64,000 nucleotides of DNA from Roseimaritima ulvae (GTDB lineage: Bacteria > Planctomycetota > Planctomycetia > Pirellulales > Pirellulaceae), in contig NZ_CP042914.1 of the NCBI RefSeq assembly GCF_008065135.1, positions 7,049,404 through 7,113,403 of the forward strand. Direction: 5' to 3'. Both the position numbers and the translations under genes were made by a program. The notes below the pieces were generated by a model, which saw only the letters and a list, made by a program, of their open reading frames with translations, ran no database searches and had not been told where the DNA came from. How positions within the stretch are numbered: position 1 is the stretch's first letter; every line of letters begins with the position of its first letter. Of the stretch, positions 10,266 through 61,255 are shown in pieces.

Positions 10266-10334
10266 CACAGCAGCCCCTATAAATTTCAAACAGAGGAAAC
10301 TCCTCTAAGTAGCTTCCCCACGTTCTAGCCCCAA

Positions 10335-11508: not shown

Positions 11509-11536
11509 CAAGAGGCCGGGAGTACGCTGGCTGTCG

Positions 11537-11800
11537 CTACAAGGCGTCGCAAATGCTTTTGAAGCCGTCACGGATTTCGATCCCGACAAACTTCAACGAT
11601 TCCCAAACCTCTTCGGCCGATTCCGACGCGGCTTTACGAGCCGGTTTGAAGCGATTGTCCAACTTATTCAGACGGTCGTCTAACTGCTCCCAATCTTCCT
11701 GCAATTCCTTCTTGGCTAGATGCAGTTGCAACTTGATTTCGTCGCGTTCGTGCTTGAGCCCGCGAATTAGTTCGGCGACGATTTCTTCTTGTCCGCTCAT
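11537..11800 (-). CDS. small coiled-coil protein
   Basis: An 87-residue acidic/basic protein, nearly all helix-forming. Residues about 5-60 have heptad spacing of Ile/Leu/Val with many Glu/Lys/Arg (EEIVAELIRGLKHERDEIKL, then LAKKELQEDWEQLDDRLNKLDN), consistent with a coiled coil. There is no signal peptide or membrane segment. It starts with ATG at 11800, and no strong ribosome binding site is visible. I recognise no characterised family. It sits between the repeat array and decayed genes, so it might be the only surviving gene of this stretch. Confidence 0.6.
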   Translation of the reverse strand: MSGQEEIVAELIRGLKHERDEIKLQLHLAKKELQEDWEQLDDRLNKLDNRFKPARKAASESAEEVWESLKFVGIEIRDGFKSICDAL

Positions 11801-35052: not shown

Positions 35053-36219
35053 CTATAATGTCTTGAGGTTCAGTTGTTCGACAACTGTTTGCATCGGCAA
35101 ATGCTCCTGCTCAATCCGGGTATTATTGGCGCATAGATGCTGGTAACAACGCTGCTCTTGATCGGTCAGGTTGTCCAGAATTTTGGCTGCCACGGCATTT
35201 CCAGGGGTTGCCAGGTGCGAGAATTGGTCGACTGTAGGCTGACACATCAACAGACTCTGTGTCGCCGGCAGCAGTTGCCGGAGTCGATCCAGGATCGCAT
35301 AGCCCTCCGCATCTAAATCGCCCCAGTAATAAACATGATTCTGTTTTAGCCATTCGATCGCCGATAGCTGGGTGACTCCATTGCCCAGGCCCCCTAGGGC
35401 CAGCGAGCGATTCATTCGGGGCAACGACAACAGGCTGACTTTGTTTTCGACAATGATAATGCCCACCTCCCTGACAGCCAGCTTTGAAAGCGAGTCAGCG
35501 GGCAGGGACAGTTCCGCAAATGGCAGGCCCAACTCCTGCTGCAGCTCGACATCGAGCACGCGAAGTAAATAATGCGGTCGCGCATAGCGGAGTCCGTACC
35601 GCGGTTCGAAAGCATCATAGCCATACCGCAGGTCAATCGCGTGGGAGGGCAAAACGATGTCCAGCCACGTAGCCAGCCGCCGGCGATGCCCCTCGATCAA
35701 CTTAGTGGAAACCGGGACCGGCAGTTCACGGGCAAAACAGTCCGGTCGTGGATGCGCAACAAAATAGTCGACGATGCTCAGCAAGTCATCCAGAACGTCC
35801 GCGCATTCAAGCAGCGATTTCCAGTGGGTACTGGTTGTCAGCCAGTGGTTAAGCAAGGGTTGTCGCCGCCGCAGCGTGGCAACGGCCGCTTGCAAACGCT
35901 GCCACGGTTCTTCGCATTTGGCTAATTGCACCAGATCGTCCATCGTATCGATCATGATCGCGTCAGGAAAACGGTTCAAACCATGCGTGCGGCTACGTCG
36001 CGTCTGCCAAACAACACGGTAACCATGCCCCAGCGACTCCTTGCTGGCATCACGCAGCCGTTCCACATCGACGATCGCCCGAGCGTGATCCGGGGGGAGC
36101 GTCAAGTTGGCGGGCAGGCGATAGGGAAAAAAAGAAGCAAGTCGTCCCTGCAACCACTCCTTGACCACTTTGCCAAATAGCCGAGACGCCTTTGCTTCGA
36201 TTTGCTGTGAAGTAATCAT
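35053..36219 (-). CDS. jetD: Wadjet nuclease subunit JetD
   Basis: A 388-residue protein of the Wadjet JetD family (DUF3322 N-terminal, DUF2220 TOPRIM-like C-terminal). The TOPRIM catalytic residues are visible: Glu258 in IIIVENKVSLLSLP and Asp301/Asp303 in YYWGDLDAEGYAIL. The GGLGNGV loop (276-281) lies between them. In the known system JetD cuts circular plasmid DNA after loop extrusion by the JetABC SMC complex. It is the last gene of the jetA-jetB-jetC-jetD operon, 71 bp after jetC. The start is ATG at 36219. It appears intact. Confidence 0.93.
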   Translation of the reverse strand: MITSQQIEAKASRLFGKVVKEWLQGRLASFFPYRLPANLTLPPDHARAIVDVERLRDASKESLGHGYRVVWQTRRSRTHGLNRFPDAIMIDTMDDLVQLAKCEEPWQRLQAAVATLRRRQPLLNHWLTTSTHWKSLLECADVLDDLLSIVDYFVAHPRPDCFARELPVPVSTKLIEGHRRRLATWLDIVLPSHAIDLRYGYDAFEPRYGLRYARPHYLLRVLDVELQQELGLPFAELSLPADSLSKLAVREVGIIIVENKVSLLSLPRMNRSLALGGLGNGVTQLSAIEWLKQNHVYYWGDLDAEGYAILDRLRQLLPATQSLLMCQPTVDQFSHLATPGNAVAAKILDNLTDQEQRCYQHLCANNTRIEQEHLPMQTVVEQLNLKTL

Positions 36220-36290: not shown

Positions 36291-39200
36291 CTAAATCGAC
36301 AACCGGCCTTCGTCCTGCGCCGCCTCGTATTGCTCCGCGGTCAAACTGATTAACTCGCTGCGATGGGTTTGCGGATCTTTGATGATATGTCCGTAGGTAC
36401 CGACATAACTCTCCGTTATGCGAGCCTTGGCATCCAGGGGCGCAACGATCACTAACTGCAAGCCGAACTGGGCGAATAAATCCAGCGCCGCCTTGGCCCG
36501 TTTGTCGTCGCTGCGGGAAAACATTTCGTCGACCATCACAAAATGAAAGCGATCGTCAGCCGGGTCGTCGGGACGAAGATCGTATTGATAGGCGATCGCG
36601 GCGACCAATACCAGAAACGCCAATTTGCCTTTTTCACCGCCCGATTGCCCCGTCCCGCCGTCGTAATAACTTCCCCCCTGCCCCGTAGCCGCGTCGTACT
36701 CACGGGCCGCGAACCTAAACCAATTGCGAACGTCGATAACTTTTTCCCGCCATCGCAGGTTTGCATCATCCCGCAAGCGTTCCACCAGTTTTTCAACTTT
36801 CTTAAAGGTCGCCTCGTTAGCGTCATCGGTTCCCTCCAGGGTGCCTTCCAAGCAACCGGCCAGCTCGCGGCGAAAGTCTCGAATCTCGGCGTCGGCGGTG
36901 TCACTCGGCTCCAGCCGCATAAACGTGCCGGGATTCCAGTCCAGTTTCCGCAGGGCGACGTTCAGGGTTTCGATCTTGCTGCGAATTTCTTCGCGTTCAT
37001 CCTCCAACGAGCCGTGCAACAAGCCGATTTCCTGTAACACCTTCTCTTTCAATCGCTGTTTAAAGCGTCGTTCATGCCGCGGCAGATCGTCTTTGTTAAT
37101 CCGCTCGGCAAGATGTTCAAAACTGGGCAGTGACTGCGGGGTCGGATCCAGTTCGGATTCAAACACAGGAAACTTGGTCAACAGACGGCCCATCGCCTTG
37201 ACCAGCGTGTCTCGAATCGGATCGATGCGTTGCTCCACAGCAGCGACCTTGGCGGCAAGTTCGTCTGAAACGTCTCTTGGCAACACTCCCATGTTTTCCA
37301 GCGTCAGCAATCGTCCATCGAGCTGGGCGGTAATGTTTGGGAATTGAGCCCGAGCGGACTCCAACCGTCCTTGCTCCACGGCGGCGGCTAGTTTGCCATC
37401 GACACGCTGCAATACGGCTTCGCTTTTTCGAACCTCTGTATCGAGCTGTGAACGTTCGCCGACAAAGCGATCGCGTTCGGCATCCAATCCTTCGATTTCC
37501 GCCTCCAGCCGCTGCAACTTATCCTTCAGTTCCGTGATCTGATTATTGGAGGCTTCCAGTTTTTGCTTTTCAAGACGCAGCTGAGATGCTTCGAAATCGT
37601 GTCGATGATCGTCGAGCGTGTCGAATTCGGTCAGCTCCGCTAATTCTTCCAATACGGCCAACAACCGCGTCGCATGTTCGCTGGAGTTCCGTAGCGACGC
37701 GAGGTTCTGTTCCATCGATGCGATTTCGGCTTGTTGTTCATGGATCGACCGCTGCAGAGCTTCGCGTTTCGGTTTATTGTCCCAGCCCAGCACAAAGTGT
37801 CGCCGATTATCGGGGCCGCCGCGATCATCTTTGGCGTGCTGCCGTAGGTTCTGTTTGACGTGCCGGCGGATCGTCATCGCGCGACGAGATGCCCGTTGGA
37901 AATCCGCTACGTTGTCACACGCCAAGTGGTCAAAACGCGACTGGATTTCACCGCGGACGTAGGGAGTCAAGGGATGGTCATCGCGATAGTGCAACATATC
38001 CGGCAGACTCAGCTCCGACCATCTCGGTTCTCGCGAGGGACTGCCAGCGCCCACGCGGTCATAGGTCAACCGCAATCCGCGACCGCGGGCATCGGTCAAT
38101 CGCGTCGCATCGATATACCCCGAAACCTTGGCATACAAATCGTCGGGAACCAACAGCGTCCGAGCGAAGGCGTGCAAGACCTGTTCAATCGACGGCTCCC
38201 AGCGACGATGGTCGGGATCGACCGACAACAATTCGGCGACAAATGGAAGATCAGTGGGAGATAGTTTGAAGGCTTGACATAGCGCTGCGCGGATTTCGAT
38301 GAAAGCGTCCGGCAAATTCCCCTTGCGACGCCGCAGCGACGCAAGTTCATTCTCGTCCTCGGCCAGACGTTTCCGAAGCACGCCGGCTTGGTAGCTTTTC
38401 TGCTCCAGCTCCGCTGTCGCCGCGTCATGCTGGTCGGTCAACTTGCTGCGTTGTTGGGCAATCCGCTGCAGGGCCTTGCCCAACTGTTCGGTACTGGTGA
38501 TCGAAACCTGAATCCCCGCGAGTTTCAATTTGGTTTCAAAATCTAAGCGTTTCGCTTGCTTGGATTCGGCGAACTGCTGCTGTCGTTCGATCAGGTGCGG
38601 CAATTGTTGCAGTCGAGCATTGCCGCTGTGTTGAATCGCGTGCTCCACCGTGGCGGCTTCACTACGCTTTGCCTTTAGCGATTGGTCCAACAAGCCAATC
38701 TGCTCGCCCAGATGAGCGATTCGCAGTCGCCACTGGTTGCATAACGGACGCAGCAATTCGGCAGTCGTTTGATTAAAGTACAGTCCGGCCGCAGCCTGTT
38801 GATCGCGGGCGGCCTGCAGTTGGTCGCTGGTTTTGCGATACCGCTCCCCGGCCCGCATCACCGGCACCAGCAGCTCCGCTTGTTGACGGACCTGCACCAG
38901 GGCGCGGTGAGCTTCACTCAGTTCGGCAAAGTGGTTCAACAGTTTGGAAACCTTGTCGTTCCAAGGTTTCTTTTCCAGCATGTGGTCCCGAATGAATTGG
39001 TCCAACCGCTGAACGTCTTTCACCGCCACGGTCTGATTAAAAATGTCCATCGCCTTGGCGCGAAATTTTGCTTGCCGCTGGAGCCACGAATGATACTGCT
39101 TATAGCTCTCGGTGACTTGGAAGCCCCGATCGGCCAATGTCGACTTGATTTCGCTGCCCGACTTCAAGCCGCCCAGATCCCCGGCGATCGTGCGGGCCCG

Positions 39201-39695
39201 CGTATCGAAGCCGTACACAATTTTCCGCTCCCCCGTCGAAGTCAAATACATGACCTGGCAAATGGTAAAGGTCTTGCCCGAGGCCTGACTGACGAAGGTG
39301 GCCAACAGTGCCGAGTAAAATCCGCCGCCGTCGCGTAGATACTGTATCTGTGGCCTTTCGTCGCGTCCCGCCGTGCGGTCGTAGGCGCCACGGATGTAGG
39401 TTCGCTCATCGCGTTCCTTCTTCGTGGCCCCCGCGGCGACGTTGTAGTTGCGGACGCCCGGACGCACCAACAGGGTCAGCATCGCGTCCACCAGCGTCGA
39501 CTTGCCGGCACCGTTTTCACCGACCAACAGACAGCTTGTACCGTTGGGATGGATCGCATGCACGTGTCCGTCGAAGGTGCCCCAGTTAAACACCTCAAAG
39601 GTGGCCAGACGAAACCCCGGCAGAGCATGGTCTGCGACCGATTCGTTTGCCAACGGAAGCGGCCGTGGGGGGACAGGAGAGGTTGATTCCGACAT
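36291..39695 (-). CDS. jetC: Wadjet SMC/MukB-like ATPase JetC
   Basis: A 1,134-residue SMC-family ATPase. Walker A GENGAGKST is at 59-67, long coiled-coil arms cover about 200-450 and 620-830 with a hinge between them, and the ABC signature SGGEKGK starts at about 1018. Walker B FHFVMVDEMF with the catalytic Glu is at about 1057. All motifs are intact. It forms the DNA-loop-extruding motor with JetA and JetB. I chose the ATG at 39695 because AGGG sits 8 nt upstream; another ATG two codons earlier (39701) is possible. The frame is open upstream to 39833, but that part belongs to an inserted repeat. In most Wadjet operons jetB and jetC are adjacent; here a 458-bp cassette separates them. Confidence 0.93.
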   Translation of the reverse strand: MSESTSPVPPRPLPLANESVADHALPGFRLATFEVFNWGTFDGHVHAIHPNGTSCLLVGENGAGKSTLVDAMLTLLVRPGVRNYNVAAGATKKERDERTYIRGAYDRTAGRDERPQIQYLRDGGGFYSALLATFVSQASGKTFTICQVMYLTSTGERKIVYGFDTRARTIAGDLGGLKSGSEIKSTLADRGFQVTESYKQYHSWLQRQAKFRAKAMDIFNQTVAVKDVQRLDQFIRDHMLEKKPWNDKVSKLLNHFAELSEAHRALVQVRQQAELLVPVMRAGERYRKTSDQLQAARDQQAAAGLYFNQTTAELLRPLCNQWRLRIAHLGEQIGLLDQSLKAKRSEAATVEHAIQHSGNARLQQLPHLIERQQQFAESKQAKRLDFETKLKLAGIQVSITSTEQLGKALQRIAQQRSKLTDQHDAATAELEQKSYQAGVLRKRLAEDENELASLRRRKGNLPDAFIEIRAALCQAFKLSPTDLPFVAELLSVDPDHRRWEPSIEQVLHAFARTLLVPDDLYAKVSGYIDATRLTDARGRGLRLTYDRVGAGSPSREPRWSELSLPDMLHYRDDHPLTPYVRGEIQSRFDHLACDNVADFQRASRRAMTIRRHVKQNLRQHAKDDRGGPDNRRHFVLGWDNKPKREALQRSIHEQQAEIASMEQNLASLRNSSEHATRLLAVLEELAELTEFDTLDDHRHDFEASQLRLEKQKLEASNNQITELKDKLQRLEAEIEGLDAERDRFVGERSQLDTEVRKSEAVLQRVDGKLAAAVEQGRLESARAQFPNITAQLDGRLLTLENMGVLPRDVSDELAAKVAAVEQRIDPIRDTLVKAMGRLLTKFPVFESELDPTPQSLPSFEHLAERINKDDLPRHERRFKQRLKEKVLQEIGLLHGSLEDEREEIRSKIETLNVALRKLDWNPGTFMRLEPSDTADAEIRDFRRELAGCLEGTLEGTDDANEATFKKVEKLVERLRDDANLRWREKVIDVRNWFRFAAREYDAATGQGGSYYDGGTGQSGGEKGKLAFLVLVAAIAYQYDLRPDDPADDRFHFVMVDEMFSRSDDKRAKAALDLFAQFGLQLVIVAPLDAKARITESYVGTYGHIIKDPQTHRSELISLTAEQYEAAQDEGRLSI

Positions 39696-39718
39696 TGTCA
39701 TAACCCTAAAAGAATTCG

Positions 39719-40176
39719 ACGCAGAGCCGCGAGAGACGGTGAAACGCAGAGCTCGGAAGAGACTAGGTAGAAGAATGGTATTACCCGCTTCCCTATTCCT
39801 TCTCCTTGGGCCTCCGTCAAAGTCACAAACCATTTACCACGCGGTGAAAGCCATCTTTGACCATCCGCTCGCCAAAGTTCACCACAATACCAAGCTTCAG
39901 ATTTATCAAACGTAGGTACGTAAGGCATTGCGCGGCAAATATGTCATTGTATTTGGAAGTTGCCTTGCACTCGACGATCACCAAACCGTTGAGGAGCAGA
40001 TCCAGTTTTAGAGGAGTGGCTAAAACATTCTCCTTGTAAAGAATCGGAACCGCTTTTTGTCGCTCGACACGCAGCCCCGCTTCGCTCAGTTCCCAAGCCA
40101 ACGCTTCCTCATAAACACTTTCAAGCAATCCCGTCTCTCCTACTCTCGCGTCTCCCCACCTCTCGCGCCTCTGCGT
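39719..40176. mobile_element. inverted-repeat cassette carrying a GxxExxY gene
   Basis: The segment is bounded by ACGCAGAGCCGCGAGAG (39719-39735) and its reverse complement with one change (40160-40176, reading ACGCAGAGGCGCGAGAG on the minus strand). That is 16 of 17 matching terminal positions in inverted orientation. Further ACGCAGAG or ACGCGAGAG copies lie just inside each end. The right end touches the jetB stop codon and the left end lies 24 bp before the jetC ATG, so the cassette fills the jetB-jetC junction. I see no target-site duplication and no transposase; the only gene is a GxxExxY protein. It may be a non-autonomous element moved by another system. Confidence 0.6.
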
Positions 40177-40179
40177 CAA
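39823..40179 (-). CDS. GxxExxY-family protein, truncated N-terminus
   Basis: A 118-residue GxxExxY protein. The signature GLLESVYEEALAWEL (residues 17-31) and the PD-(D/E)XK-like core are intact: Asp60 in LKLDLLL, Glu70-C-Lys72 in VIVECK, then CLTYLRL and GIVVNFG. The usual first helix before the signature is missing; the first 16 residues are translated terminal repeat. The only early start is a TTG at 40179 overlapping the jetB stop as TTGA, so expression may depend on read-through or coupling from jetB. It lies inside the 458-bp cassette within the Wadjet operon. Whether it is functional is open. Confidence 0.6.
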   Translation of the reverse strand: MTQRRERWGDARVGETGLLESVYEEALAWELSEAGLRVERQKAVPILYKENVLATPLKLDLLLNGLVIVECKATSKYNDIFAAQCLTYLRLINLKLGIVVNFGERMVKDGFHRVVNGL

Positions 40180-40823
40180 GTTTCATCATTACCCTCCGGT
40201 GCAGCACGGCGCTGTAATTCGGCTTCCAGGTCTCGTCGCAAGCGTTCCAATTCTTCCAACGGCAACCGAGCTTTGAGGATACGACGGATCTCCCAGCTGG
40301 CTGGCTGTTTTTCGAACCGACGCACAAATTTTAATTCTTCCAGCTTCCGCAACTGGCCGCTTAGATTGCGATTTGCTCGCACGTCGTCCTGGTCCCCCGG
40401 CATCAAGGTTTGCCAAACCTCCAACAGCGAGGACTGCAACACCACACAACGATCGTCGCGATGAATTTCTTCTTCGAACCGCCTCAACTCCTCACGTAAC
40501 AATACGCACAACAACGAAGCTTCGAAGGTCAACCGGACGCTGCGAAACAGTTTGGGGATCGAGGGATAGTCTGTCGGTAAGGTTTCCGGTTCGAGCTGAC
40601 GCAAATAAGCGAAACCGTCCTCCTCGTTGACGATCAGCAACAAGCCGATCCGCGCGAAATAATCGCTCAGCGGCGTAGCTCCGGCAAGGATACGCTCCCA
40701 GGTATCCCCGCGGTCGTCATGATAAACAATGCCTTGCAGCAACCGCACGGCCGCGGGCGCCCAGGGCACCGGCGGCGGCAGCATATCGGGCGACAGTGTT
40801 TGATCAGGCGGTAAGTCCGTCAT
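40176..40823 (-). CDS. jetB: Wadjet subunit JetB (DUF4194)
   Basis: A 215-residue JetB/DUF4194 protein, the MukE-like winged-helix partner of the SMC complex. Landmarks are VRLLQGIVYHDD, WERILAGATPLSDYFARIGLLLIVNEEDGFAYLRQ and LSGQLRKLEELKFVRRF with SWEIRRILKARL near the end. I chose the ATG at 40823 (GAGGA 4 nt upstream, 13 bp after the jetA stop); an in-frame ATG at 40868 would overlap jetA by 32 bp. Its stop codon touches the terminal repeat of the inserted cassette. Confidence 0.9.
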   Translation of the reverse strand: MTDLPPDQTLSPDMLPPPVPWAPAAVRLLQGIVYHDDRGDTWERILAGATPLSDYFARIGLLLIVNEEDGFAYLRQLEPETLPTDYPSIPKLFRSVRLTFEASLLCVLLREELRRFEEEIHRDDRCVVLQSSLLEVWQTLMPGDQDDVRANRNLSGQLRKLEELKFVRRFEKQPASWEIRRILKARLPLEELERLRRDLEAELQRRAAPEGNDET

Positions 40824-40836
40824 CCCATCCTCGTTC

Positions 40837-42366
40837 TCAGCGGGGCTTGCCTTTGCGTATGGTTTCATTCTTGGCTTGTCGAGTCCGGTAAAATGTCACC
40901 AGCGGGACCCGTACGCGCACGGTGCTCGATCGCTCACTAACCGGATCTTTTGTGGTCACGGTGATCGTTTCCATGGAATCTCGGTCGATACGATGCCCGT
41001 CTTCATGGGCGATCTGCAGCCAGCCGACCAACTCGATCACGCCCACTTGCGGTGGACGATGACGAAGCAACTGCGACAACGCGACGGTGGGCAGTGAATC
41101 GGTGAGCCGCTGAATCAGATCTCGCATGCGATCCCACTGCAAACGTTGCATCCCCGCTAGTTTCCGTGCCTGACGCTGAACTGTTTCCAAATCGACTTCA
41201 TGCACCTGAGGTGCGATATCGAAGGTCTCCGCTGGTGTCCAAAAAGGACGCGCAAATGGCGAATCGACACCGCTCGACGTCTGGACTTGCAAGCCAATCG
41301 GCTGTGGCACGGGTTCGTTGGTGGCGTCGCCCGACTGTTTCAGTTTGGCGGCCAAGGTTCGGATGTCCTTCAAGACTTCGGCGGTCCGCCTGCGGTGTCC
41401 GGTCGACTCGCTGTCTAGCAAGCGGCGCAGGGTCTGAGACAATCGACCGGTTTGACGAAGCACGTTCTCGGCCTCGGCCAGCAGGTTTGGCACCATCGTG
41501 CGGATGTGCTCGATCCCGCCGCGATCATTTGCCAAAGCCTCCAGCGAAAGCACTTCGGAAATCGTTTCGCGAAGCCGAGTTTGCGCTTGTGGTGAAAACA
41601 AGAAGGACACAAAAGCGTCGAAACTAACGCCCTCGTCCTGTTGCTTGACCAAGTCCTCCGCGTCCAGTGCCCCGGCCAGAATCTCTCCGCGGCCGCGTTC
41701 AAGATCGAAGGCGCTGCGAGTGACCTCACGAGCGATTTCCTCGAACCGATCCTCAACCGCGCGAAAGTCGCCCTGCAGGGTCTTTAGCAAGTCGACGGCC
41801 GTGTTAAATCGTTCCCGCACCTGAGCCAGGTGATAGGTGTCGACGGGGGCGCCACCGCGAATCGCCTCGATTTCACGATCCGATCGTTCGCGCTCAGCAA
41901 GCAGCGACTGCAAACGCCGACCGGGATCCGCCGAAGAACCGCGGACCAAATCCGTCAGCGTGTCGATCACCAGCCGCAACCGGCTTTCCGTTCCCACCAT
42001 GCGGTGCTGGCGAGACAGTCCCGCATCGACAAACTGGATGGCATCTTCGGCGTAGCGGGTCAGTTGATAACTGGGGCCTGACGAATCGGCGGGCAGGAAC
42101 CGCCGCAACCAGCCGGCGTCGGACCACTCTCGCAGATAACGATCCGGCGTCCCCGACAGCACGTCGTAGCCATCGTTTTGCAGGTTTTCCTGAAAAATGC
42201 TCAGCTGATGCAGCAGGTCGTCATGCGACATCGAAATGGCGGAATCTTCGCCGGTTAATTTCAACGTTTGCCGCAGAAAAAACAGCACATAAGCCCCCTG
42301 ATCGGCGCGCAGCAGGCGCACCGTCGGCGAAGCTTCCAGATAGGCAAGGACGCGTTCCATTTCCAT
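40837..42366 (-). CDS. jetA: Wadjet subunit JetA (DUF3375)
   Basis: A 509-residue JetA/DUF3375 protein, the kleisin-like (MukF-like) subunit that bridges the JetC heads. It starts VLAYLEASPTVRLLRAD and has long helices and family segments such as FVSFLFSPQAQTRLRETI and WLQIAHEDGHRID near the C-terminus. It is the first gene of the operon; the ATG at 42366 has no strong ribosome binding site. The 105 bp upstream, before the PEP-CTERM gene on the same strand, should hold the promoter. Confidence 0.92.
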   Translation of the reverse strand: MEMERVLAYLEASPTVRLLRADQGAYVLFFLRQTLKLTGEDSAISMSHDDLLHQLSIFQENLQNDGYDVLSGTPDRYLREWSDAGWLRRFLPADSSGPSYQLTRYAEDAIQFVDAGLSRQHRMVGTESRLRLVIDTLTDLVRGSSADPGRRLQSLLAERERSDREIEAIRGGAPVDTYHLAQVRERFNTAVDLLKTLQGDFRAVEDRFEEIAREVTRSAFDLERGRGEILAGALDAEDLVKQQDEGVSFDAFVSFLFSPQAQTRLRETISEVLSLEALANDRGGIEHIRTMVPNLLAEAENVLRQTGRLSQTLRRLLDSESTGHRRRTAEVLKDIRTLAAKLKQSGDATNEPVPQPIGLQVQTSSGVDSPFARPFWTPAETFDIAPQVHEVDLETVQRQARKLAGMQRLQWDRMRDLIQRLTDSLPTVALSQLLRHRPPQVGVIELVGWLQIAHEDGHRIDRDSMETITVTTKDPVSERSSTVRVRVPLVTFYRTRQAKNETIRKGKPR

Positions 42367-43239: not shown

Positions 43240-46200
43240 TTAAAGCGAGCCAGCAAGTTGTGCCTGGTCGTCGGCCAGCAGATTCAGCAGATCGTCTTCC
43301 TCCTCATCCTGATCTGCGAATGAGTTTGCCCCGGCATGCAAGGTCGACAGCGCTGCGGGTTCCGGCGGAGGCGTCACCGAGCGCCCCATCGCCCGAGCAA
43401 CCAAGATACGGTCACGAACCGTGATCCGGCCATCACGGTCGAGATCGGCATTGGGATCAAAGTTCGGCATTGAGGCGTGACGCCCCATGGACTGCAAGAC
43501 CACCGACATATCTGCCCCATCGACCACCCCACTGCCGTCCGCATCCCCGTTCAGACGGTGGAATATCAGCAAGAAATCATCGCCTCCAATGCCATCCCCA
43601 TTTCCATCGAGAAGGTTTCCGGTAACGTCTGAGACAACGGAAGCATCAATAGTAAATACGTAAACGCCATCGGCTAACGACTGGCGTCCAGAATTAAACT
43701 CGTCTAGCGACCACGTCAATCGCGATGAGCCGGTTTCTTCGTCAAACTCGTATCGGAATTGGTTCGCAGTCGTTGAGACCGGAGTGTCTGGATCGGCATC
43801 GGCGTTGATACCCAAATTTGTAATCGTAACGGCCGATGTGATCGCACCATTTGCGATCAAATCTCCCAGGTTCGTCGCCTCATCAAACGTAAAGCTCAGA
43901 GTGTCGACATAGGACCGCTGAGATGCGCCTGCTTGTACATTCTCGGCAATTGCTCGTGGCGGAATTTCGTCCGGAGGGTCAGGTGTTGTGATCGTGGCGT
44001 CTGCAACATGCGGCGCCTCTTCGACATTGCCAACGAGGTCGCGAGCGATGCTGTAGAAACTATATTGCGTGCTTGGCTCACCAAGGAACTCCGCGGAGGT
44101 CAATTCTGTGTCGGCAAGCCATAATGCGTATCCGCCGTCATTCGCTCGGACGTAGACGTCGTACGTCGAATGGCCCGAACCAATATCTCCGTCGTCGCCC
44201 GCCCAACTCACCGGGATTCGTTGATCACCCACCGGCGACGTAATCGAGGCAACCGACGAGTCTGGGGCCATCGCATCGATCGTGTTGAAGATCGGCGGAG
44301 TGTCGATGGGCGCATTCTCATCGAAGAAGATTCTCGCCTCGGCGTCGATCCTCGCTCCATTGGGCGACGAGGCTCGCGGACGAACCGTGTAAGATACGAA
44401 TCCATCCCCCTCCGGCGCCGTCACATTGGGAGGCAGGAAGCCGATAAAGCGATCGAGCGGCACCTCGCCGGTGAGCGGGTCAATTGACGTGAGTTGCCAG
44501 AATACTTCGCCGGCCGATACGTCTACGCCAGCAGCGACATCAACAAAGATTCCATACCGTTCGCGGAGATCGAGGCGGGTCGCGTAGAACGAACGATTCT
44601 CAGGCATCAGAAATACGAGGTCACCGAACCCGAAGTCTCCCAAGCGGAAGGTTCGAGCATCGACGTCACTGTCCAGAGTTTGGGTGATCCGCACGACCTG
44701 GGCGGGAGCATTCGCGGCTTCCGGATCGTTCTCAAAGCGGACCGTGTAGTTCAGCGTGTCGACAACGGACACCCATCGTTCATCGCCAACTCCCTCTGGA
44801 CCGAGGATGTCGTTCGGGTCAAATGATCGCGGGAAAGTCACAGTCGGGCTGTGTGGTGGTTCTTGCTGACCAGGAGGTGTAACCGGCGTCTCACCGCCAG
44901 GAGGCTGTTCAGATGGTGGAGCAGGAGTTCCCGGCGGATCATTGCATCCCTCCAGAAGATTTTGATACCGTTCACACGCGTATGCCGGGTCAAGTCCCCG
45001 TCGAACGTAGTCCTTGGCTACATGAGTGCCGCGTGCAAACTCACTAGGGTTCTCGACCGCGACCGCAACTGCCCCACCTGCCGAAGGGAACCGCTTCGGC
45101 GAAAACAATCCAAACACAATCCCCTCAAGTGTTACGCTGCCAGTACTAATGTAACTCCCAAAGATTCCAGCCCCGATACCAATCCCGATGAGTAACAACG
45201 GGTTCTGTCCCGCTGGATCGACATAAATCGACGGTGAGTTGAGAGCGTACTGATATAGATTAGTACTTCCACCAGCGAGGCCAATCGGATCAACCGAAGT
45301 AAACCGCCCTTGCATCGAAGAGTAATTCCGATCCCTCATGTTGAGGAAACCGTCGCCATTGTCTGTCACGCCTAAACCCCCAGAAAATCGAAAGCGATTG
45401 CCGATTGTCTCTAGTACGTCAATCGATTGCCCAAACGGACTATAGGAATAGGCATTGAGCACTGTCCCCAAAGAGCTAGTCAGAGCTGTTACATTGCCAA
45501 GCAGATCCGTTTCGTAGTACGAGAGGTCTCCATTTGCACCCTCCGCACGACCCGTGAGAGTTGCACCATAGATGTAGCGAGCGACCAGGGAACCGCCCGA
45601 ATCGTATTCAGAAGCAATCGAGCGAATCCCTTCTGGGTCGACGAGGAAGCTAGTCCGACTCCCATTCAAATCGATGGAAGCCAGAGTTCCAAATGCGTCA
45701 TAGTCGTAACGCCACTCCTGCCCCGGACGACTTGCGGAAATCAGTTGGTTCTGCGTGTCGTAGGCAAATGTGCTCGCTAAACCACCTGCCATTAGTCGTA
45801 CAAGATTTCCATCGGCGTCATATTCCAGGCTTGCGTCACCGATCTGCTCATACTGATTGAGCGTATTGACGACGTAGGACACCGTCGTCGCTCCTTCAAC
45901 TGACCGAAGTCTATTACCAACCGCGTCGTAGCTATACTCGAAGTACTGGTCTTCGAGTCCGCTGCCCATTGCTGCAATGAATTCTGCCGCAACGAGTTGC
46001 CCAATCGCATCATACGAGTACTCCCACGTCCCTCCGTCGGTCGAGTCGCTTATTGGTCTTCCCAGCACGTCATATGTGTACGCGTGGCTAGAACGAACAG
46101 ACTGGTCGGGTGAATAGTGGGCTAGGCTACCCACATAGCCTGCGTCATTGAGTGCAAGCTCTGAGAACGTACCGTTGCCACGCTGGATTCGCTCAATCTG

Positions 46201-49200
46201 TCCGGAAATGCCGTAGCTATAACGCGCTATGAGCGATCCGTTGCCCAATACTTCCGACAGCCTTCCAACGTTGTCGTAGCTGTAAGTAACGCGGTAACCT
46301 TCCTGGTCCACCATCGATACCCTGCGGCCGAAGCTGTCGTATTCAAATTCCAGGAATCTTCCACTTGGGTCAGTGACGCGAGTCAGGCGATCCGATGTGT
46401 CGTATTCGAATATTGTTGTCTCGCCCCCAGACTCTGTCACCCTGGTTAGACGACCTAGGGCATCGTAGGTCATTTCAACCGTCGAACCATCGTCGAATAC
46501 AATTCCCGCTAGCTGTCCAGAGTCGGTAAATGACTGTTGAGTCACATGCCCACGTCTGTTGACATATTCGAGAATGTTTCCACTTGAGTCGTACTGAGGC
46601 AGGAATTCAGTACTGCCATCGGCATACGTAACCGAATTGCGATTGCCAAGAGTGTCGTAGCCGTAACGAGTCGAATTGCCGTTAGCGTCCGTATATGCAG
46701 CTAGACGGCGCATAGAATTAACGCCGCCCATCCACTCGTAGCTGTAGGCCGTCGAGTTGCCAAGTTGGTCAGTTGCGCTGACCAAGTTGCCAAACTCATC
46801 CCATTCAAAACCCTGCGTCTGACCTAGGGCATCGGTAATCAACGAAACCAGGCGATCAGCGTTGTAGCTGATACTTGTCGAATACCCTATTGAGTCAGTT
46901 ATTCTGGAAAGCAATCCGCTAGAGTTGTACAGAAGCGTAGCTGTGCCGAGTTGGTCATTTACTTGAATTGCCCCCGCGCGGTCGTAACTAAACGAGACGC
47001 CTGGAGCTGTTTCTAGAGTGCCGATCGAGGCAATCCGTCCCCGAAAATCGTAACCGTAGTTGAGCAAGACTCCGCCTGTAACCTGCGAGGTCAGGGCACC
47101 GCGATGCATCGCGTTACTCGACGTGTCGTAGGCGTATTCTGTAACGGTATTATCCGGGGCAACTACGCGTACTAGATACGTGTTTGTCGAGTCGTAGGTA
47201 TATGTTGCTGATCGCGCAAGGTGGTCGCTAATAGAGCGAATGTGCCCGAAGGCGTCGTAGGCAATTGCAAGATGTTGTCCAGAGCTGTGCTCTAGAAGAC
47301 TCAGCTTGCCGTTGCTGTAAGATGCCGAGATGCGATTCGAGTTGGCATCTTCAATGTACGCGAGCTGCCCATTAGCTGAATAACCAGTTCTTAATCCCGA
47401 CGTACTTTGCAGAACCCACTCGCCATCAACTAAAGTCAGCAAATCTGAAGTTGAGTATGCCGGTGAGTAAATCCCGGGCTGGTCATCAACCGGGAAGAAG
47501 TGCCTATCGCCGCCCGATCCGTTCAGTATGGTTACGCGACCGCCTGACGACTCTTGCAGAGTGCTTTCCCAAATGGTACGCCATCCGCTTCCGAAGATTC
47601 CGTCATGGTCACGTGCAATGATGCTCGATCCGAAATTACGCGAGAGATCAAGTGTTAAACCTGGAGCGGTGACGGTGATATCAGTCATCGACGCAAGCGT
47701 GTGAACTGGTCCGAGCGAGTTCATAGCTTGCTGCACTTCAAAATCCCAAAGCGTCGCAATATCGTTTGCGCGCTCACCTAGCTGACTCAAATGCGTGGCG
47801 TTTTCATTCAGCATCACAACGAAATCACCCCAGGTCGGGATGTCCGACGTAAGGTTCGCGAACACAGCGTCCCACGCTTGTTCGGATAGGTTCTCCGGTT
47901 TGAGGACGTCACGCTGAGCGGCCCAATCGATGGGCGTGCGGTCTTGCGCTGAGATGATCCCCATGTCCAGGGCGATCTGGGCGGCGTTCGGTCGGAAGAA
48001 GACGGGGATCGTGGCGGTGTCGCCGGGCGAGTAGATGCCGGCGGGGCCTTCGTCGTTGATTGCAAGGAACTGCACCGTTTGCACGGCAAGGTTCGTCGGC
48101 GAGAAGCCGAACGGGGTACCGAGCCGCTCGGAGCTGAGCGTAATCAGCGGGGCATATGTATCCGCGGTGCTGGTGTTGCCGATCAACAGGTCTACCGGGT
48201 GTGTCAGATTGATCTGGACGCTGTCAGCTCCCTCGAACCGTGCGGTAATGCGGCCGCTGTTGCGGGTGTTGGCGATGACTTCAACCGACTCCGCCACCGT
48301 CACCGTCCCACCAATGGGATCGCTGACCCGCAGGTCGTACTCGCCCAAGGGAATCTCGTTGCCGGGCATGCCTTGCAGGTCGAATGTCGCGTAAAGCGTC
48401 GACGTGTCCGTCATCCAGTAGTTGACGGCCGGAATGACTAGGTCCCCCAGCACCAACTCGGCCGTTGTGCGACCGGTGAACTTGGCGCCGTTGATGCGGA
48501 TGGTGTTGAGCCCCGATAGGTCTTCGCCTTCGACGAATTGCGTGGTTTGATTAGAGCTTGTCGCCCCGAGCGAGCCAAAATCCGTGTCGAGCACGCTGAA
48601 CTCGACAGTCCGAGCGACGAGGTTGAACGGCAATGCGGCTTCGATGTCCGCCCCATAGCCGAGGATGTAGTAGGTGCCGGCCCGTGTAATCGGAACGATC
48701 ACACGCTGGTCGGTCGAGTAGGGTTCAACGTCGCTGAAGTCCGACAGGCTGCGCGACGGCAGGTCGTCGAAGCGGACGTAGAGTTCAACCGATGAATCGG
48801 CCGACGGCTGGTCGAGTTCGATCACGAGGGTGTCGCCTAACTCGACATCGACGCGGTAGTAAACCGATCGGTCATCGGCGATTTGGCCCGCGACCGGAGT
48901 ACCCAGCGTCAATTCTGCGACATCGACCGCAAACGAGTCGAGGCTTCCCGAAAGGTTGTTGGTCTCGTCGCTCTCGGGGAGGTTGTTGAGGATGTCGGAC
49001 CGCACAATAACGTGGTAGTCGCCCGGGAGCACGCCGGGGAGCGGTGCGGTATTCGTGCTGGTGTAGCTCTCGCCCGCGAGCACGTTGCCGTTGTGAGTGA
49101 CGCGGCCGAAGAACGCGTCGTTGATGTCCCACGTCTCGTCGGAGGACAGGTAAATCGCATCTGACCAGGAGCCCGTCGCAGGGTTCAGCCCCGTGTTGTT

Positions 49201-52200
49201 GACGGTGAAGGTGATCGTGGCGTCCTGGCCTGGCATGCCCGACGCTGGGATGGTGATCTCACCGACCACTAGGTCGGCCGGGGGTATGTGAAGAATCTCA
49301 ATGGACGCGTCCGCGACGCGAGCGTTGTTCGATTCTCCGTTACGCTCGTACAGACGGTCGGTAGAGTCGGCAACCACGATGACAAAAAACCGCCCACCAA
49401 GTGCCGCCGGTACCGAAACAGTTCCGCTACTTGTGTAAGAGCCGCTGGGGGCGACCGGAGTGGATCGATCGACGTAGCCAATCGAGATGTCGGTGGCGCG
49501 GTCGAAGATCGGGTCGAGCGACAAATAGACGCTGTCGAACCAATTGCCTTCAGCAGTCCCCGGACCGGTGTTTTGGACGGTCCACGACAGGTCAAAGGTC
49601 CGCCCGGAGGATGCTGTCGACGGGGCGGTAATCGACGTAACGACGAGGTCGGGAGTGGGGTTGAGCGAGATCGCGATCGGCGCGGCGCTACGGTTCTCGT
49701 TGTTCCCCTCGAACGCGCCTTCCGCTACCGCGTTGCCGAAGTCGGTCTGGACGACGACGTAGAAATCGCCTTCCAGGTCGACATCGAGTTCGTAGTTCAG
49801 CGTGCGGGAATACGATGCCCCAGCATCTAACCGTTCGGTGCGTCGTATCGACCCGATCATCAGGTCGTCGGGACCAACCGTAGTATCGGTCGATAGCCAG
49901 ACGCGGTCGGTCCACAAGCTGACCGGGGTCCGCCGCGTGCCGGCGTTGCTCACCTGCCAGGAAACCGACAACGTCTCTCCCGAGAGCGCCGTGGCAGGGG
50001 CCACAACCGAGTCGACCACTAGGTCAGCCGCGTCGGTGGGGCTGGCAACTCCGACAACCAGCGGAGCGAAGCTCAGCGTGTTGTTCGACTCGTCGCTTTC
50101 GGTCATCGCGTCTCCTGAGTCGGTGCTCAGGAACAATCGATAGGTCCCCGCCGGCGTGCCGAAGGGCACCGCAACGTTTAAGCTAGCGCGGGAATAACTT
50201 GCGGACGGCGCGAGAGAGGCCGGACCATCGAAACTGCCGAGTTGAATGTCGTCCGAGTTGCCCAGGATGTCGTCCGACGAAAGGACAAGGCTGTCACGCC
50301 AGATAGAACTGTACGTGGGGCCGACTCCATTATTCGCTACGCTGTAGTCAAAGGTGATGGTCCCGCCGGGCAGCACCTGCCCTCCCGTCACGCGCGGATT
50401 AAACGAGGTGAGCTGGGGGTCTGGGCGGTCGTCGGTGATCGTAAGCGGCAACGCGAACAGGTTGTTCTCGTCGTCTAGCTCGAAGACTTGATTCGTGGCG
50501 TCCGAAACGATCAGCAGGAACCGGGAGCCGAACTCTCCTGCGGGGAGTATCGTGGCGACAGAGAGCGACTCCTGCTGGCCGCTGGCCAACACGCCCGTAC
50601 GCCGCCGGGAGCCGAGCGAAACATCCGACGGGTCGAGTGTGGCGTCGTTCGAAAGGAAGTAGGCATCGAACCAGACGTTGCTCGGAGTCGGCACCGGCCC
50701 CGAGTTGAGGACCGTGTAGTCGACGACGAATTCACGGCCGCTTCTCGGTTGCGAGTTCGACGATGCAGCCGTGACGCGCAGGTCGGGCGGTGATACGGCG
50801 ACCGCGATGTGCTCCGCAGACACACGGGTGTTGTTGTCGTCGTCGGACTCAAACACGGTGTTGAACGTGTCGGAAACGACGAAGACATAGAACTCGCCGG
50901 TGAGCGTGTTCGGGAGCGTGAAGGTGTGGGTCTGGGTCTCCGACTCTCCTAGGTCCAGCACGCCACTGCGGAGTCGATTGCCGAGCAGCATGTCGGTGTC
51001 GGGGTCGAGCTGGTCGTCCGTGGAGATGTAGACTGCGTCGCTCCACGAAGCGACGGGCGTCGCGTTGGCGCCTTCGTTGGTTACGACGTATTGGACCGTG
51101 AATGGTTGGCCCGCGTAGGCGTTCGCAGGGGCGTTCAACTCCGTCACAACCAGGTCAGGTGTCGGCGACTGCAACACCTCGATCGACCGAGAGCCGTCAT
51201 TGTTAAAGTCCAAGACGTGTTCGTAGACCTGCCCCAGGGCGTTGGTGCGCACGATGACGTGAGCGGTCCCGGACGCGGCGAACGGCGTGGCGATTGAAAT
51301 ACCGCTCACCGTGTACGTTCCATCGGGAGCCAGTTCGTCAAACCGAGGAACGCTAGCCACCAGCATGTCCTCGGCATCGATGGTGTCGCCGTTGAACGAC
51401 AGGAAAACTTGGTCCGTCCAGGCCACGCCACGCGTGCTGCCGATACCCTGATTACGGACGGTCCACCCGATCTGGAACGGCGTTCCGGAGAAGACCAGGC
51501 TCGTCGCCGACACGGCGTCGACCACCAAGTCCGGTGGCGGTGTGAGGTTCACCGTTGTAATGGTACTTGCCCGGGTGTTGTCATCCTCGGCTTCTGGCTC
51601 AACAAGACTATTGAAACCATCCGCGACTACGATAAACCGGTAGTTGTTTTCAATTCCTTGTGGGAGCCGAGCGGTCAACGTGCTTTGGTAACTCTCACCC
51701 GAGTTGAGGTAGCTGCCGTTCCGTACTGAACCAAGGAATCGATCATTGCCGTCGAGAGTATCGTCGAGCGAAAGGTAGACCACGTCCGACCACGACAGTG
51801 CGTTCGTCGCACCAGTACCGACATTCTGGATTACCCATTCAATCGTCACTTCTTGGTTGGAAAATGCGGTTGCGGGAGCGACAATAGAGTCGACGACAAG
51901 ATTGGGAGCTGCTGGTGCTATGACGCTCAGTGTTTGATCGTCGATGGCTTCGTTGTTGTTTTGACCGGCAAGCTCAAAGACCGAGTTGTCGCGGTCAGTT
52001 CCAACAACCAAACGCACCGGGCCCGAAACTCCTGCAGGAAACGCAATTGTTTGCGTACGGGTGATAGATGCCCCTGGCATCAGGGTACCAACGAAATCGA
52101 ATTGCCCCAAAGAAATGTCATTGCCAATCGCGTTGTCAAGCGAATACAAGACTCGGTCGCTCCACGGTCCACTGGCAACACCATCCCCTCGATTCTCAAC

Positions 52201-55200
52201 TGTCCAGCTGACCTCTATTGATTGTCCAGCAATCACTTCCGCAGCGGTCGTGATATCGCTGACCACTAAATCGGGCAAGAGTGGATACTCAACCTGGATC
52301 GCGGGCGAAGCCACAATATTATTGGCCTCATCCGTCTCTAGTTCCGAAGCGAGCGAGTCAGTAACGACCAATAGGTGATACTGGCCAATGTCCGTGCCGA
52401 ACGGAAGAGTTGTAGAGCCGTTGATCATGTACCCAGTGCCCGTTTGAGTAAGCGGCAACGAGGCAGCGGGGCTTACAAACTCACTAAGCAGAATATCACT
52501 GGAGTCGAACGTTACGTCGCTGGAGAGATAAACTCGATCGATCCAAGTGTCGACAGTATTACCGTCCCCCGTATTGGCGATTGTGAAGGAATAGTCGAAC
52601 GGAACGCTGAGTTGGATCGTAGCCGGAGCATTGTTGATCGCTGGAATAAGATCCGGTTCAGCCCGGCGGGTTATCGTCACAATCTCCGATGCAATCGTAT
52701 TGTTATCACCGAACGTGAACTCGTATTCATCTCCAGTCGCATTGACGAGCAGAATTAAATAGTGGTCACCGTCGATGCGTTCCGGCAATGTCACGTCGAC
52801 CGCAAATGCTTCGGAGTCACCGACGTCTATTGCGTGCTGGATTGTCGTACTATTCAGTAGAGTGTCATCGGCACTGAGCGTGGAATCCGTGGACAGATAG
52901 AGCCGATCGGTCCAAGGTCCCGAGGCGTCACGAATACCTTGGTTGGCCGTCGTCCAGGTGACATGAAGTAACTGACCGCTGGAAGCGCTGGTAACGGAAT
53001 GGAGTTCATCGGGAAGCAGGTCGACATAGCGACCGGGCGCGATCGAGACCACATCATGCGTCCTCGCCACGTTCGATTTAATATCGTCGTATTCATAGAC
53101 GATCGCATCGCTGTCAACACGCACGAACCAGTGATATGAACCTTCAAGACCGCTGGGCACCTCACCAGTCCAACTGCCGGAATAGCTCTCTCCGGCGGCC
53201 AGCGAACCGTCACGGATGACTTCGGCGATCAAACGATCGTCGGCATTTCCGAAGGTTGAGTCGGTCGATACGTAGACGCGATCGACCCAGGATTCGATCA
53301 CACCATCGGGCGTCCCATCGCCGGTGGTACCCGTTCCTGCATTGGATACATTCCAATTTACCGTCGCCGGCTCACCGACAATCGCCAACTCAGGAGCGAC
53401 GACCTCGGTCGCATGTAAGTCCGCATAAGGCGTCAATGTGATGTCTGATGCCGCGAGGGAACGGACATTGTTGTCTTCGAACAGAAACTCAGCGATTTGG
53501 TCCGTGGCATCGGTTTTGACCAGAACTTGATAGTCCCCCGAAACACCGATGGGCAACTGCACGAGTGTGTTTTGTGTATAGGTGTCATTGACAGCCAAGA
53601 CGCCATTGCGAGGAACATCCGCCAAATGAACATCGTCCGCATCTCCCACGCGATCATTCAAACTCAAGAAGACTCGATCGACCCACTGATCGCCTTGCGT
53701 GTCCACCGCGCCAAAGTTTCCGACCGTCCAAAGAATCTCAACTTGCTGTCCACTTTGTAGCGTGTCGTCCGAGACCGTCAGCTCGGAAACAGACAGGTCG
53801 GCAAAGTCCAGCGAACTGGTGGGTTGTATGGAAACATCAATGACATAAGCCGCATCAGGACCTTCCCCGTCAAATCCCACTACATCGATATAATAGATGC
53901 CGCCTTCTGAAATGTCGGCCCGAACGACGTTGGCGTCCACCGGATTAGGGCTGAGCGAAATGACTTCGTCGTTTGCGTTGCGAATCTCTAGAACGGGCAC
54001 GAGCGTGCTGTATTCTGGCAGCCGCGCGCGAGCCAAGATGGTTTGGTCAGCCCCCACGTTGCCGATATTGAAATAGTCTTCATCGACATTGCTGTTTTCC
54101 CCTCGCATGACCGTGCCGGCAACAGCGATCGAAATCGTATCGCCGTCAACCATGCGGGTGACGACGTCCGCACCACTCGTGTTATCGTTGGCATAGCCCG
54201 CATCGGTTTCCAGATCGAGCCCCCGTGCGACGTTGATTCGAACGTCGTATCCTCCGGGAGTGCTGTCATAGTATTGTTTCCCTATCCGTACGTAGTACGT
54301 CGTCGTGGCGGGAAGTTCGTAGCCGCTGATGTAGGCGTCATCGCCGGGCCCCGCTCCGCCACTCACACCGTTGCTGATTAGCAACTGCACACCATCGCCC
54401 GAGTCATTCAGGCGGTATAACGCGGCGTACGGTCGTAACGTTTCTAGCTGCTGACTCCATACGTCCACCCGGTCGCCAGCCAGGCCTTCAAAGCTCCACC
54501 AATCGTATTCGCCGTAGCTCTGGTACGGGGCCGGATCGATCGAACCGTAGCCCACTTCGCTTCGCAACCACCCTGTCCCGTTGGCATCCGCGGTGAATGC
54601 AAGCGGGGTCGCTTTGGCATATGAATTGTTGTCAGAGCCTTCGAACACCGCGTTCTCGGGAACCGCATCTACCGTAAACGAACGAACGAAGTCTCTCCCC
54701 GCGGCGCCGTCGGCATCGCCGTCGAGCGCATTACCCGCAACGCCCTCGGCGACCGGCAAGTCCGTCAAGCTGTCGGAGATCGTGAACCGATGCTCACCGT
54801 CGACAAGCGGTCCGTCAGTGACCGTGAAATGGAGCGTCAGATCACTGCGACTATAGCTCAGGCCGTAGACGCTATCGTCCGCGGTGTCGAACACTCCGTC
54901 AGCGCCCGCTGTCCGCAGGTCAAACGCGTCGGCGGAGAGCGTTGCCGGATCGAGTTCGCTGAACGTCACATTGAATGTGCTCAACACCTGTTCCAAGGTG
55001 CCACCTTCGGCGGGAAGACGGTTGACCGTCGTCACCACCGGCGGCACCAGATCGCGCAGTTCCACCGATGCGTTTAGGACGTACTGTGACTGCACTCCAG
55101 CACCGGCGAGTTCGGGATCGCCAACTTCGGTAGCGGTCTCAATCACACCACGAAAACTGTATGTCGAGTATATGTCATACCAATAGCCGTTGGAGGACAG

Positions 55201-61152: not shown

Positions 61153-61255
61153 CACACAGGGCTCCGCAAGCAGGTTTCAGTCCGTAAATCCAGCTTCGAT
61201 CGCAACTCATTTTGCGATTTCCTCAGAAATCCTACTCACTACCTCTGGTAACGAA

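Follow-up and report, generated by a model that had tools for sequence, protein, structure and literature searches.

A 64,000-nucleotide stretch of the Roseimaritima ulvae genome (GCF_008065135.1, contig NZ_CP042914.1, positions 7,049,404 to 7,113,403 of the forward strand; hereafter the window) carries on its minus strand a type I Wadjet operon that is interrupted by a small nuclease gene lying between inverted repeats. The operon has the order jetA-jetB-[cassette]-jetC-jetD, and the neighbors of the cassette match the PADLOC models JetA1, JetB1, JetC1, and JetD1: jetA (DUF3375; 40837–42366), jetB (DUF4194; 40176–40868) immediately upstream, jetC (SMC/MukB-like; 36291–39701) immediately downstream, and jetD (35053–36219). 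The cassette itself (39719–40176, minus strand) encodes a protein of the GxxExxY (PDDEXK_3) family. We analyzed this copy together with other GxxExxY genes and their flanks.

The cassette between jetB and jetC

A preliminary description of this DNA had reported a 458-bp segment with 17-bp terminal inverted repeats, and this was confirmed: the cassette spans 458 bp when measured from the outside edges of the best-matching 17 nt of each arm, and its ends ACGCAGAGCCGCGAGAG (39719–39735) and ACGCAGAGGCGCGAGAG (40160–40176, minus strand) are identical at 16 of 17 positions. The full arms are longer, with 28 of 35 positions identical in the alignment. The left arm (40148–40182, minus strand), 5' of the nuclease gene in gene sense, reads AACTTGA CGCAGAGg CGCGAGAGg TGGGGAGa CG... 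and is a degenerate array of core units; the inverted right arm (39713–39747, plus strand) reads AATTCGA CGCAGAGc CGCGAGAGa CGGTGAAa CG... and has, by eye, approximately the same unit spacing. The left arm provides the stop codon of jetB, whose TGA (40178–40176) lies within it at ACTTGA/CGCAGAG, and the AGGG resembling the ribosome-binding site of jetC is intact outside the right arm. The earlier figure of 23 bp between jetB and jetC without the cassette holds if jetC begins at its second in-frame ATG (39695), but the first ATG (39701) gives 17 bp. By eye, AGGGTTATGA (39698–39707, minus strand) matches AGGGTAATGA at the jetB end (40186–40195) at 9 of 10 positions; this may be an imperfect target duplication of 10 bp, which other cassettes do not confirm. 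Rfam gave two matches, both far below the gathering score and to long non-coding RNA families (HOXB13-AS1 and ZEB2-AS1), and we took them as chance.

The nuclease frame (39823–40179, minus strand) comprises 118 amino acids from a TTG start. As previously described, it overlaps jetB by TTGA and begins with ~16 residues translated from the arm. It scored 110.7 bits against the family profile TIGR04256 (cut-off 35) and 101.4 bits against PF13366 (cut-off 22). The TIGR04256 match begins at position 19 of 116 (positions 19–20 across both profiles), and thus the family start codon and first helix are missing. Alignment with 14 other members gave the same picture, with the start methionine and first helix replaced by translated arm; the nearest of these members were L097 (65% identity) and L100 (62% identity). 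Retained in the window protein are D60, E70, K72, Q84, and Y88 and the motif GLLESVY. Its predicted structure has a mean predicted local distance difference test (pLDDT) score of 84.2, with values below 50 for residues 1–15 and no first helix; that of an intact relative reaches 96.8. By scores, D-ExK residues, and motif, the protein belongs to the GxxExxY family, and without the first helix it is a truncated member. Taken together, its sequence and structural model suggest that the window copy is decaying and probably no longer functional.

We compared jetB-jetC junctions across genomes. JetB was found in 8 of 98 genomes and, within a 392-genome sample of the phylum, scored over the cut-off in 12 genomes with 12 other loci; both genome counts include the own genome. 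All 19 other junctions, from 18 genomes, were uninterrupted; three of these (L267, L268, L277) were checked by translation, and JetB matches below the cut-off in G264 and G314 stand outside the count. Given these 19 junctions without insert, the cassette was most likely gained within the lineage leading to this genome. The comparison also bears on an alternative raised in the preliminary description, that the nuclease has been recruited as a fifth Wadjet component. Although its location within the jet operon and the TTGA overlap with jetB would fit recruitment, the cassette is present in none of the 19 other junctions, the same type of cassette occurs in other operons, the window nuclease lacks its first helix, and no PADLOC model matches it (at E 0.001, the nuclease matched no family in PHROGs or PADLOC). 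We therefore rejected recruitment, which is hardly credible on these data. The other alternative offered in that description, the harmless landing of a small mobile element that carries a nuclease-fold passenger, is supported by the clean junctions and by homologous arm-bounded cassettes that occupy different surroundings in many phyla.

Inverted arms and phased cores around GxxExxY genes

For each GxxExxY gene, the 250 nt upstream were aligned with the reverse complement of the 250 nt downstream, and a score of at least 14 was called arm-positive. Among relatives, 84 of 108 loci were positive, compared to 8 of 203 shifted controls, and in a GTDB-wide set 60 of 77 were positive, compared to 1 of 260; the latter set spans Planctomycetota, Proteobacteria, Bacteroidota, Chloroflexota, Acidobacteria, Cyanobacteria, Spirochaetes, archaea, and others. 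The 108 loci comprise 110 among the matches listed, down to about 120 bits, plus L001 and L002 of the own genome and minus four with short flanks (L054, L114, L134, L148); the own-genome loci L003 and L004 and the broken L005/L006 lie outside this number. The GTDB-wide set consists of the best 80 matches to one peptide pattern, from which three were dropped for short flanks. One locus appears twice (L077 = L185), such that 184 distinct loci stand behind the combined 185. Arms reached the threshold within 144 of the 185 cassettes, as opposed to 99 of 1,480 combinations of upstream and downstream flanks from different cassettes. The median cassette size was 508 bp.

The window copy scored 18.5 in this test and therefore has inverted arms around its gene; 2 of 112 random placements in its own genome reached 14. 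No further exact copy of its 17-nt ends was found genome-wide, the two exact matches both being at this cassette, and with up to three mismatches there were 80 genome matches compared to 59 for a backwards-read control. The idea that the ends form a local repeat family was rejected, since no other exact genomic copy exists. According to the preliminary description, this outcome would reduce the ends to chance repeats. That part did not stand: end sequences are cassette-specific, and what cassettes share is a format and the agreement of left with right, so missing genomic copies do not refute the cassette. Chance repeats flanking an ordinary small intergenic gene would agree with the missing second copy and with the degenerate arms of the window cassette; set against the excess of matched arms over controls across the class, however, this explanation is exceedingly improbable.

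Of the 98 genomes searched (own included), 64 held GxxExxY proteins above the curated cut-off. Queries of the L038 type matched none of 50,697 phage records (E 1e-5) and 8 of 72,556 plasmids. The suggestion in the preliminary description that these proteins travel with repeats proved right and far more general than supposed, but the 9.5-kb gene it cited differs, having a longer protein, other repeats, and no such arms (score 7.0). This gene (window 9474–10289; L004) encodes 271 amino acids, matches PF13366 with 80 bits, and lies beside an array of ~132-nt tandem repeats bearing hairpins (~10300–11700), both architecture and repeats being unlike the cassette class. A second longer GxxExxY gene is found in the same genome (G000:C1:1565390; L003). 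At G000:C1:7995460–7996531 (L005, L006, L287), an array of tandem CACAGAT-type hairpins precedes a GxxExxY gene that was matched as two fragments.

The arms were then scanned for the pattern C[AG]CNNAN, requiring at least three cores per arm at steps of 8–12 nt; as the pattern itself sets positions 1, 3, and 6, their constancy is built in. In 78 of the 185 cassettes, both arms contained at least three 7-nt cores, approximating CRCNNAK, with steps nearly all of 8–11 nt and most often AAC preceding the first core. The cores vary among cassettes (CACGAAG, CGCAGAG, CACGGAT, CGCCAAG, CGCTAAT, and others) and largely agree within one. Spacing also differed from cassette to cassette, but left and right arms had the same spacing pattern in 69 of the 78, whereas re-paired arms gave a mean of 15.0 and a maximum of 27 over 5,000 draws. 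Within these 69 cassettes, all six cores were identical at core position 2 in 60 cases, at position 5 in 59, and at position 7 in 62, compared to re-paired means of 34.0, 31.9, and 41.0, respectively. Left-right mismatch was 3–5% at these three positions, 28% at position 4, and 43% in the spacers, and rose to 52–77% outside the arms, on the outer side from the fifth base outward and on the inner side from the first base. The format also varied with the protein: core position 7 follows the protein tree with 4 changes (shuffled mean 14.1, minimum 12 over 300), and spacing does so with 27 (shuffled minimum 35). At several loci (L090, L112, L116, L138, L141, L142, L097, L296), one or both ends form a complete hairpin of arm, loop, and inverted arm.

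These mismatches bear on whether the arms act as DNA or RNA. In the 428-nt 23S rRNA intervening sequence of Coxiella, tandem heptamers stand before an S23p gene, and RNase III excises the element, as far as the available text describes it (PMC4990558). An RNA-level element of this kind, with arms that pair in the transcript, are removed by RNase III so that the insertion does no harm, and are kept for that pairing, would account for the sense orientation of the cassettes within operons (see below) and for a layout like that in Coxiella. However, wobble-compatible left-right mismatches were not in excess over incompatible ones (59 compared to 66), leaving selection for an RNA stem unsupported, and the mismatches are position-specific. 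Both observations favor a protein that recognizes DNA with a fixed ruler, and we regard the RNA-level explanation as improbable; the arms may still pair incidentally in the transcript.

Insertion sites, homology ends, and a second gene family

Genomic context was assessed for the 123 of 144 arm-positive loci with a long open frame on each side. Both neighbors had the direction of the nuclease gene in 73 cases and the opposite direction in 13 (p = 2.7e-11), while 26 pairs of neighbors were convergent and 11 divergent. For the 73 co-directional cassettes, the left arm followed the upstream stop codon at a median distance of 10 nt, the next start lay a median of 28 nt beyond the right arm, and the summed gap had a median of 39 nt. 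In 52 of 100 cases, compared to 41 of 668 random points, the left arm began at −10 to +20 nt relative to the upstream stop; this control includes coding positions and so overstates the contrast somewhat. Judging from sequence, the neighbors presumably include 2-oxoacid dehydrogenase E2/lpd, imuB/dnaE2, gatA/gatB, and hsdS/hsdR. The cassette between jetB and jetC, with the jetB stop codon inside its left arm, is one more operon case of this stop-codon-adjacent placement.

To locate the ends of homology, we used 130 ordered, non-independent cassette pairs with at least 70% DNA identity, excluding matches longer than 800 nt as orthologous. The end of homology and the arm end lay no more than 15 nt apart in 44 pairs on the left and 50 on the right, and homology extended more than 15 nt beyond the arm in only 1 and 4, respectively. 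A reciprocal empty-site comparison of L055 and L110 yielded a single, uninformative shared stretch of 1.2 kb. At the imuB-dnaE2 junction, one genus contains a full cassette (G093), a full cassette with a right-end hairpin (G482), and a gene-less relic of the right arm (G077), and eight junctions without a cassette occur in other families. The 19 imuB loci compared (L309 excluded) comprise that of G093, the full L296, the relic L305, the eight without, and eight that are not assignable (including L295 of the same genus); of the eight without, five were judged by motif and three (L306, L308, L313) by eye. Gene-less hairpins of cassette format were also present in the R. ulvae genome, with 33 and 11 matches to two patterns and none in backwards-read controls, and several of them stand as hairpin pairs. 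Short words shared beside the arms were in excess (41 6-mers compared to 10.1 expected with partners shuffled across genomes), but their offsets were scattered, a picture that local base composition can produce.

Other repeat-associated arrangements were seen during these comparisons. Gene-less CACAGAT hairpins at several places in G000:C1 (L282–L286) lie within a larger dispersed repeat and have similar flanks. Genome G063 holds two related GxxExxY cassettes (L128 and L150; 79% DNA identity), one of them with an internal stop codon. Two Bacteroidota records (L193 and L203) share 702 bp at 85% identity, with sharp ends at other repeats (GCTACTC.TT). Elsewhere in the window, a single open frame of 5,971 codons (43240–61155) has long internal repeats and, by eye, RHS-like and dockerin-like stretches.

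A second gene family of the same genomes occupies similar cassettes. Genes for the four-helix-bundle protein (S23p, TIGR02436; L155–L184) had inverted arms in 28 of 30 cases, compared to 1 of 59 controls, and 10 matches to this gene were found in the R. ulvae genome. Their arms consist of 7-nt tandem units (autocorrelation 0.68 at 7, 0.66 at 14, and ~0.3 elsewhere). They occupy the same kind of place, behind the stop codons of co-directional genes, with both neighbors co-directional in 14 of 19 cases.

A putative nuclease-driven element and its relation to known systems

The nuclease is under strong purifying selection, with ratios of non-synonymous to synonymous substitution rates (dN/dS) of 0.04–0.07 in the 5 computable pairs of 12 tried (2 were saturated and 5 differed in length). 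D-ExK-Q is invariant in 24 aligned proteins and Y is present in at least 90% of them. The fold of an intact relative was predicted with high confidence, and Foldseek placed Cas4, phage, and lambda-type exonucleases nearest to it; the nearest solved fold was Cas4 SSO0001 (probability 1.00, query TM-score [TMq] 0.51). By sequence, solved structures gave one match only (E 0.22), which was disregarded. The D-ExK-Q...Y set fits what we take to be the Cas4/RecB/lambda exonuclease branch. Predicted fold and conserved residues together lead us to take the GxxExxY nuclease as the enzyme acting on the arms.

By a narrow balance, we favor the reading that the window holds a decayed copy of a small element that is, or once was, mobile, with a Cas4/RecB-like nuclease that would act on its arms. 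The unit would consist of a left arm, one gene for a PD-(D/E)XK protein of ~120 amino acids, and an inverted right arm. As an oligomer, the nuclease may bind the phased cores of both arms and make the DNA breaks by which the cassette is copied or moved, and it could mobilize the gene-less hairpins in trans. Insertion behind a stop codon in an operon would provide both expression from a host promoter and harmlessness. On this model, the window segment would represent a single copy inserted between jetB and jetC and decayed thereafter.

Several observations weigh against this reading. No movement has been observed. In most of the 130 pairs, homology stops inside the cassette rather than at the arm, and other cassette pairs are orthologous together with their flanks; several cassettes are thus old and vertically inherited, and the class does not hop often. 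No target duplication was found at a fixed position beside the arms in 76 cassettes. Arms at the threshold were missing from 41 of the 185 copies, and the two longer GxxExxY genes of the own genome were arm-negative (L003, 8.5; L004, 7.0). In 107 of the 185, at least one arm lacked the three-core format, and 24 of the 185 showed it in opposite orientation, as is expected where ends are hairpins themselves. The window arms fail the three-core test (at least three C[AG]C..A. per arm) and are absent among the 78, and a stricter scan of the window found no chain. Core positions 2 and 5 follow the protein tree only weakly (13 changes with a shuffled minimum of 12, and 15 with a minimum of 15, respectively). 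Foldseek gave no match at E ≤ 0.001. Contact of the nuclease with the arms is an inference.

The main alternative is a non-autonomous cassette, in which the arms serve as ends for an unrelated trans-acting transposase and the nuclease is a passenger kept for other reasons, such as its own maintenance or defense. The small median size, the rarity of homology past the arms, and the existence of gene-less hairpins are all compatible with this view, as is the occurrence of four-helix-bundle genes in similarly placed cassettes with another arm format, which indicates at least two gene families with such a lifestyle. Yet the format depends on the protein family, with a broad 8–10-nt periodicity for GxxExxY and sharp 7-nt units for the four-helix bundle, and core position 7 tracks the GxxExxY tree. 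Both findings disfavor a common trans-acting enzyme, and we consider the non-autonomous cassette unlikely, if far from negligible.

The nearest parallel with a known enzyme is that of the repetitive extragenic palindromic (REP) sequences and their TnpA-REP or REP-associated tyrosine transposases (RAYTs), also called REPtrons. In REP/RAYT systems, repeats flank the enzyme gene. As far as the available descriptions go, both cases tie an enzyme gene to palindromic repeats that it may mobilize. The enzymes differ, a tyrosine (HuH) transposase there and a PD-(D/E)XK nuclease (PDDEXK_3) in the cassette; moreover, GxxExxY arms consist of phased 7-nt cores with cassette-specific letters, and the window ends are unique in the genome. 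Miniature inverted-repeat transposable elements share small size and inverted ends with the cassettes, and free-standing homing endonuclease genes are likewise nuclease genes between other genes; in contrast to these, the cassette contains no transposase gene and occupies many different target sites, which argues against site-specific homing. Cas4, RecB, and lambda exonuclease share the predicted fold and the D-ExK-Q...Y residues, whereas the GxxExxY protein stands alone at ~120 amino acids.

The 23S rRNA intervening sequences, in the accessible part of their description, resemble the cassettes: each has a single small gene with short tandem units ahead of it, inverted repeats, and an insertion that is tolerated. 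They differ in encoding another protein, in units of 7 nt compared to the steps of 8–12 nt here, and in residing in rRNA rather than protein operons; the window cassette, accordingly, is not an S23p/four-helix-bundle gene in rRNA and does not belong to them. Given the arms of the four-helix-bundle genes and the Coxiella layout, intervening sequences look like a particular instance of this kind of cassette.

The protein encoded here belongs to TIGR04256 and PF13366, and these entries name the protein only, not a cassette. GxxExxY also appears in a CRISPR reverse-transcriptase context, in the portion of the report available (PMC8934634). No description of a GxxExxY cassette class was found in the literature searched, which is no proof, as most subscription journals were outside its reach. 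GxxExxY arm cassettes are widespread and apparently undescribed; they are kin to inverted-repeat-bounded selfish cassettes, with a fair chance of deserving more. A broader proposal is tentative, and we place it a little short of an even prospect: that they form an undescribed class of prokaryotic mobile element, whose sole enzyme would be a Cas4/RecB-like nuclease of ~120 amino acids recognizing arms of three to four phased 7-nt cores, with arm letters and protein changing together. Insertion would be directed or restricted to the sense gap behind a stop codon, gene-less hairpins would be satellites, and the S23p cassettes, with their arms of 7-nt units, would be a sister class of the same lifestyle to which the 23S rRNA intervening sequences also belong.

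For annotation, the jet locus cautions that a small gene within a defense operon need not be part of the defense system. Should the broader proposal prove true, a common nuclease family, for which no function is described in the literature searched, and a set of repeat hairpins would become one testable system. This would be a new mobile element with a minimal Cas4-like nuclease as its enzyme and with insertion behind stop codons, in sense, as its rule, and the old puzzle of the 23S rRNA intervening sequences would be placed in a wider family of operon-dwelling cassettes.

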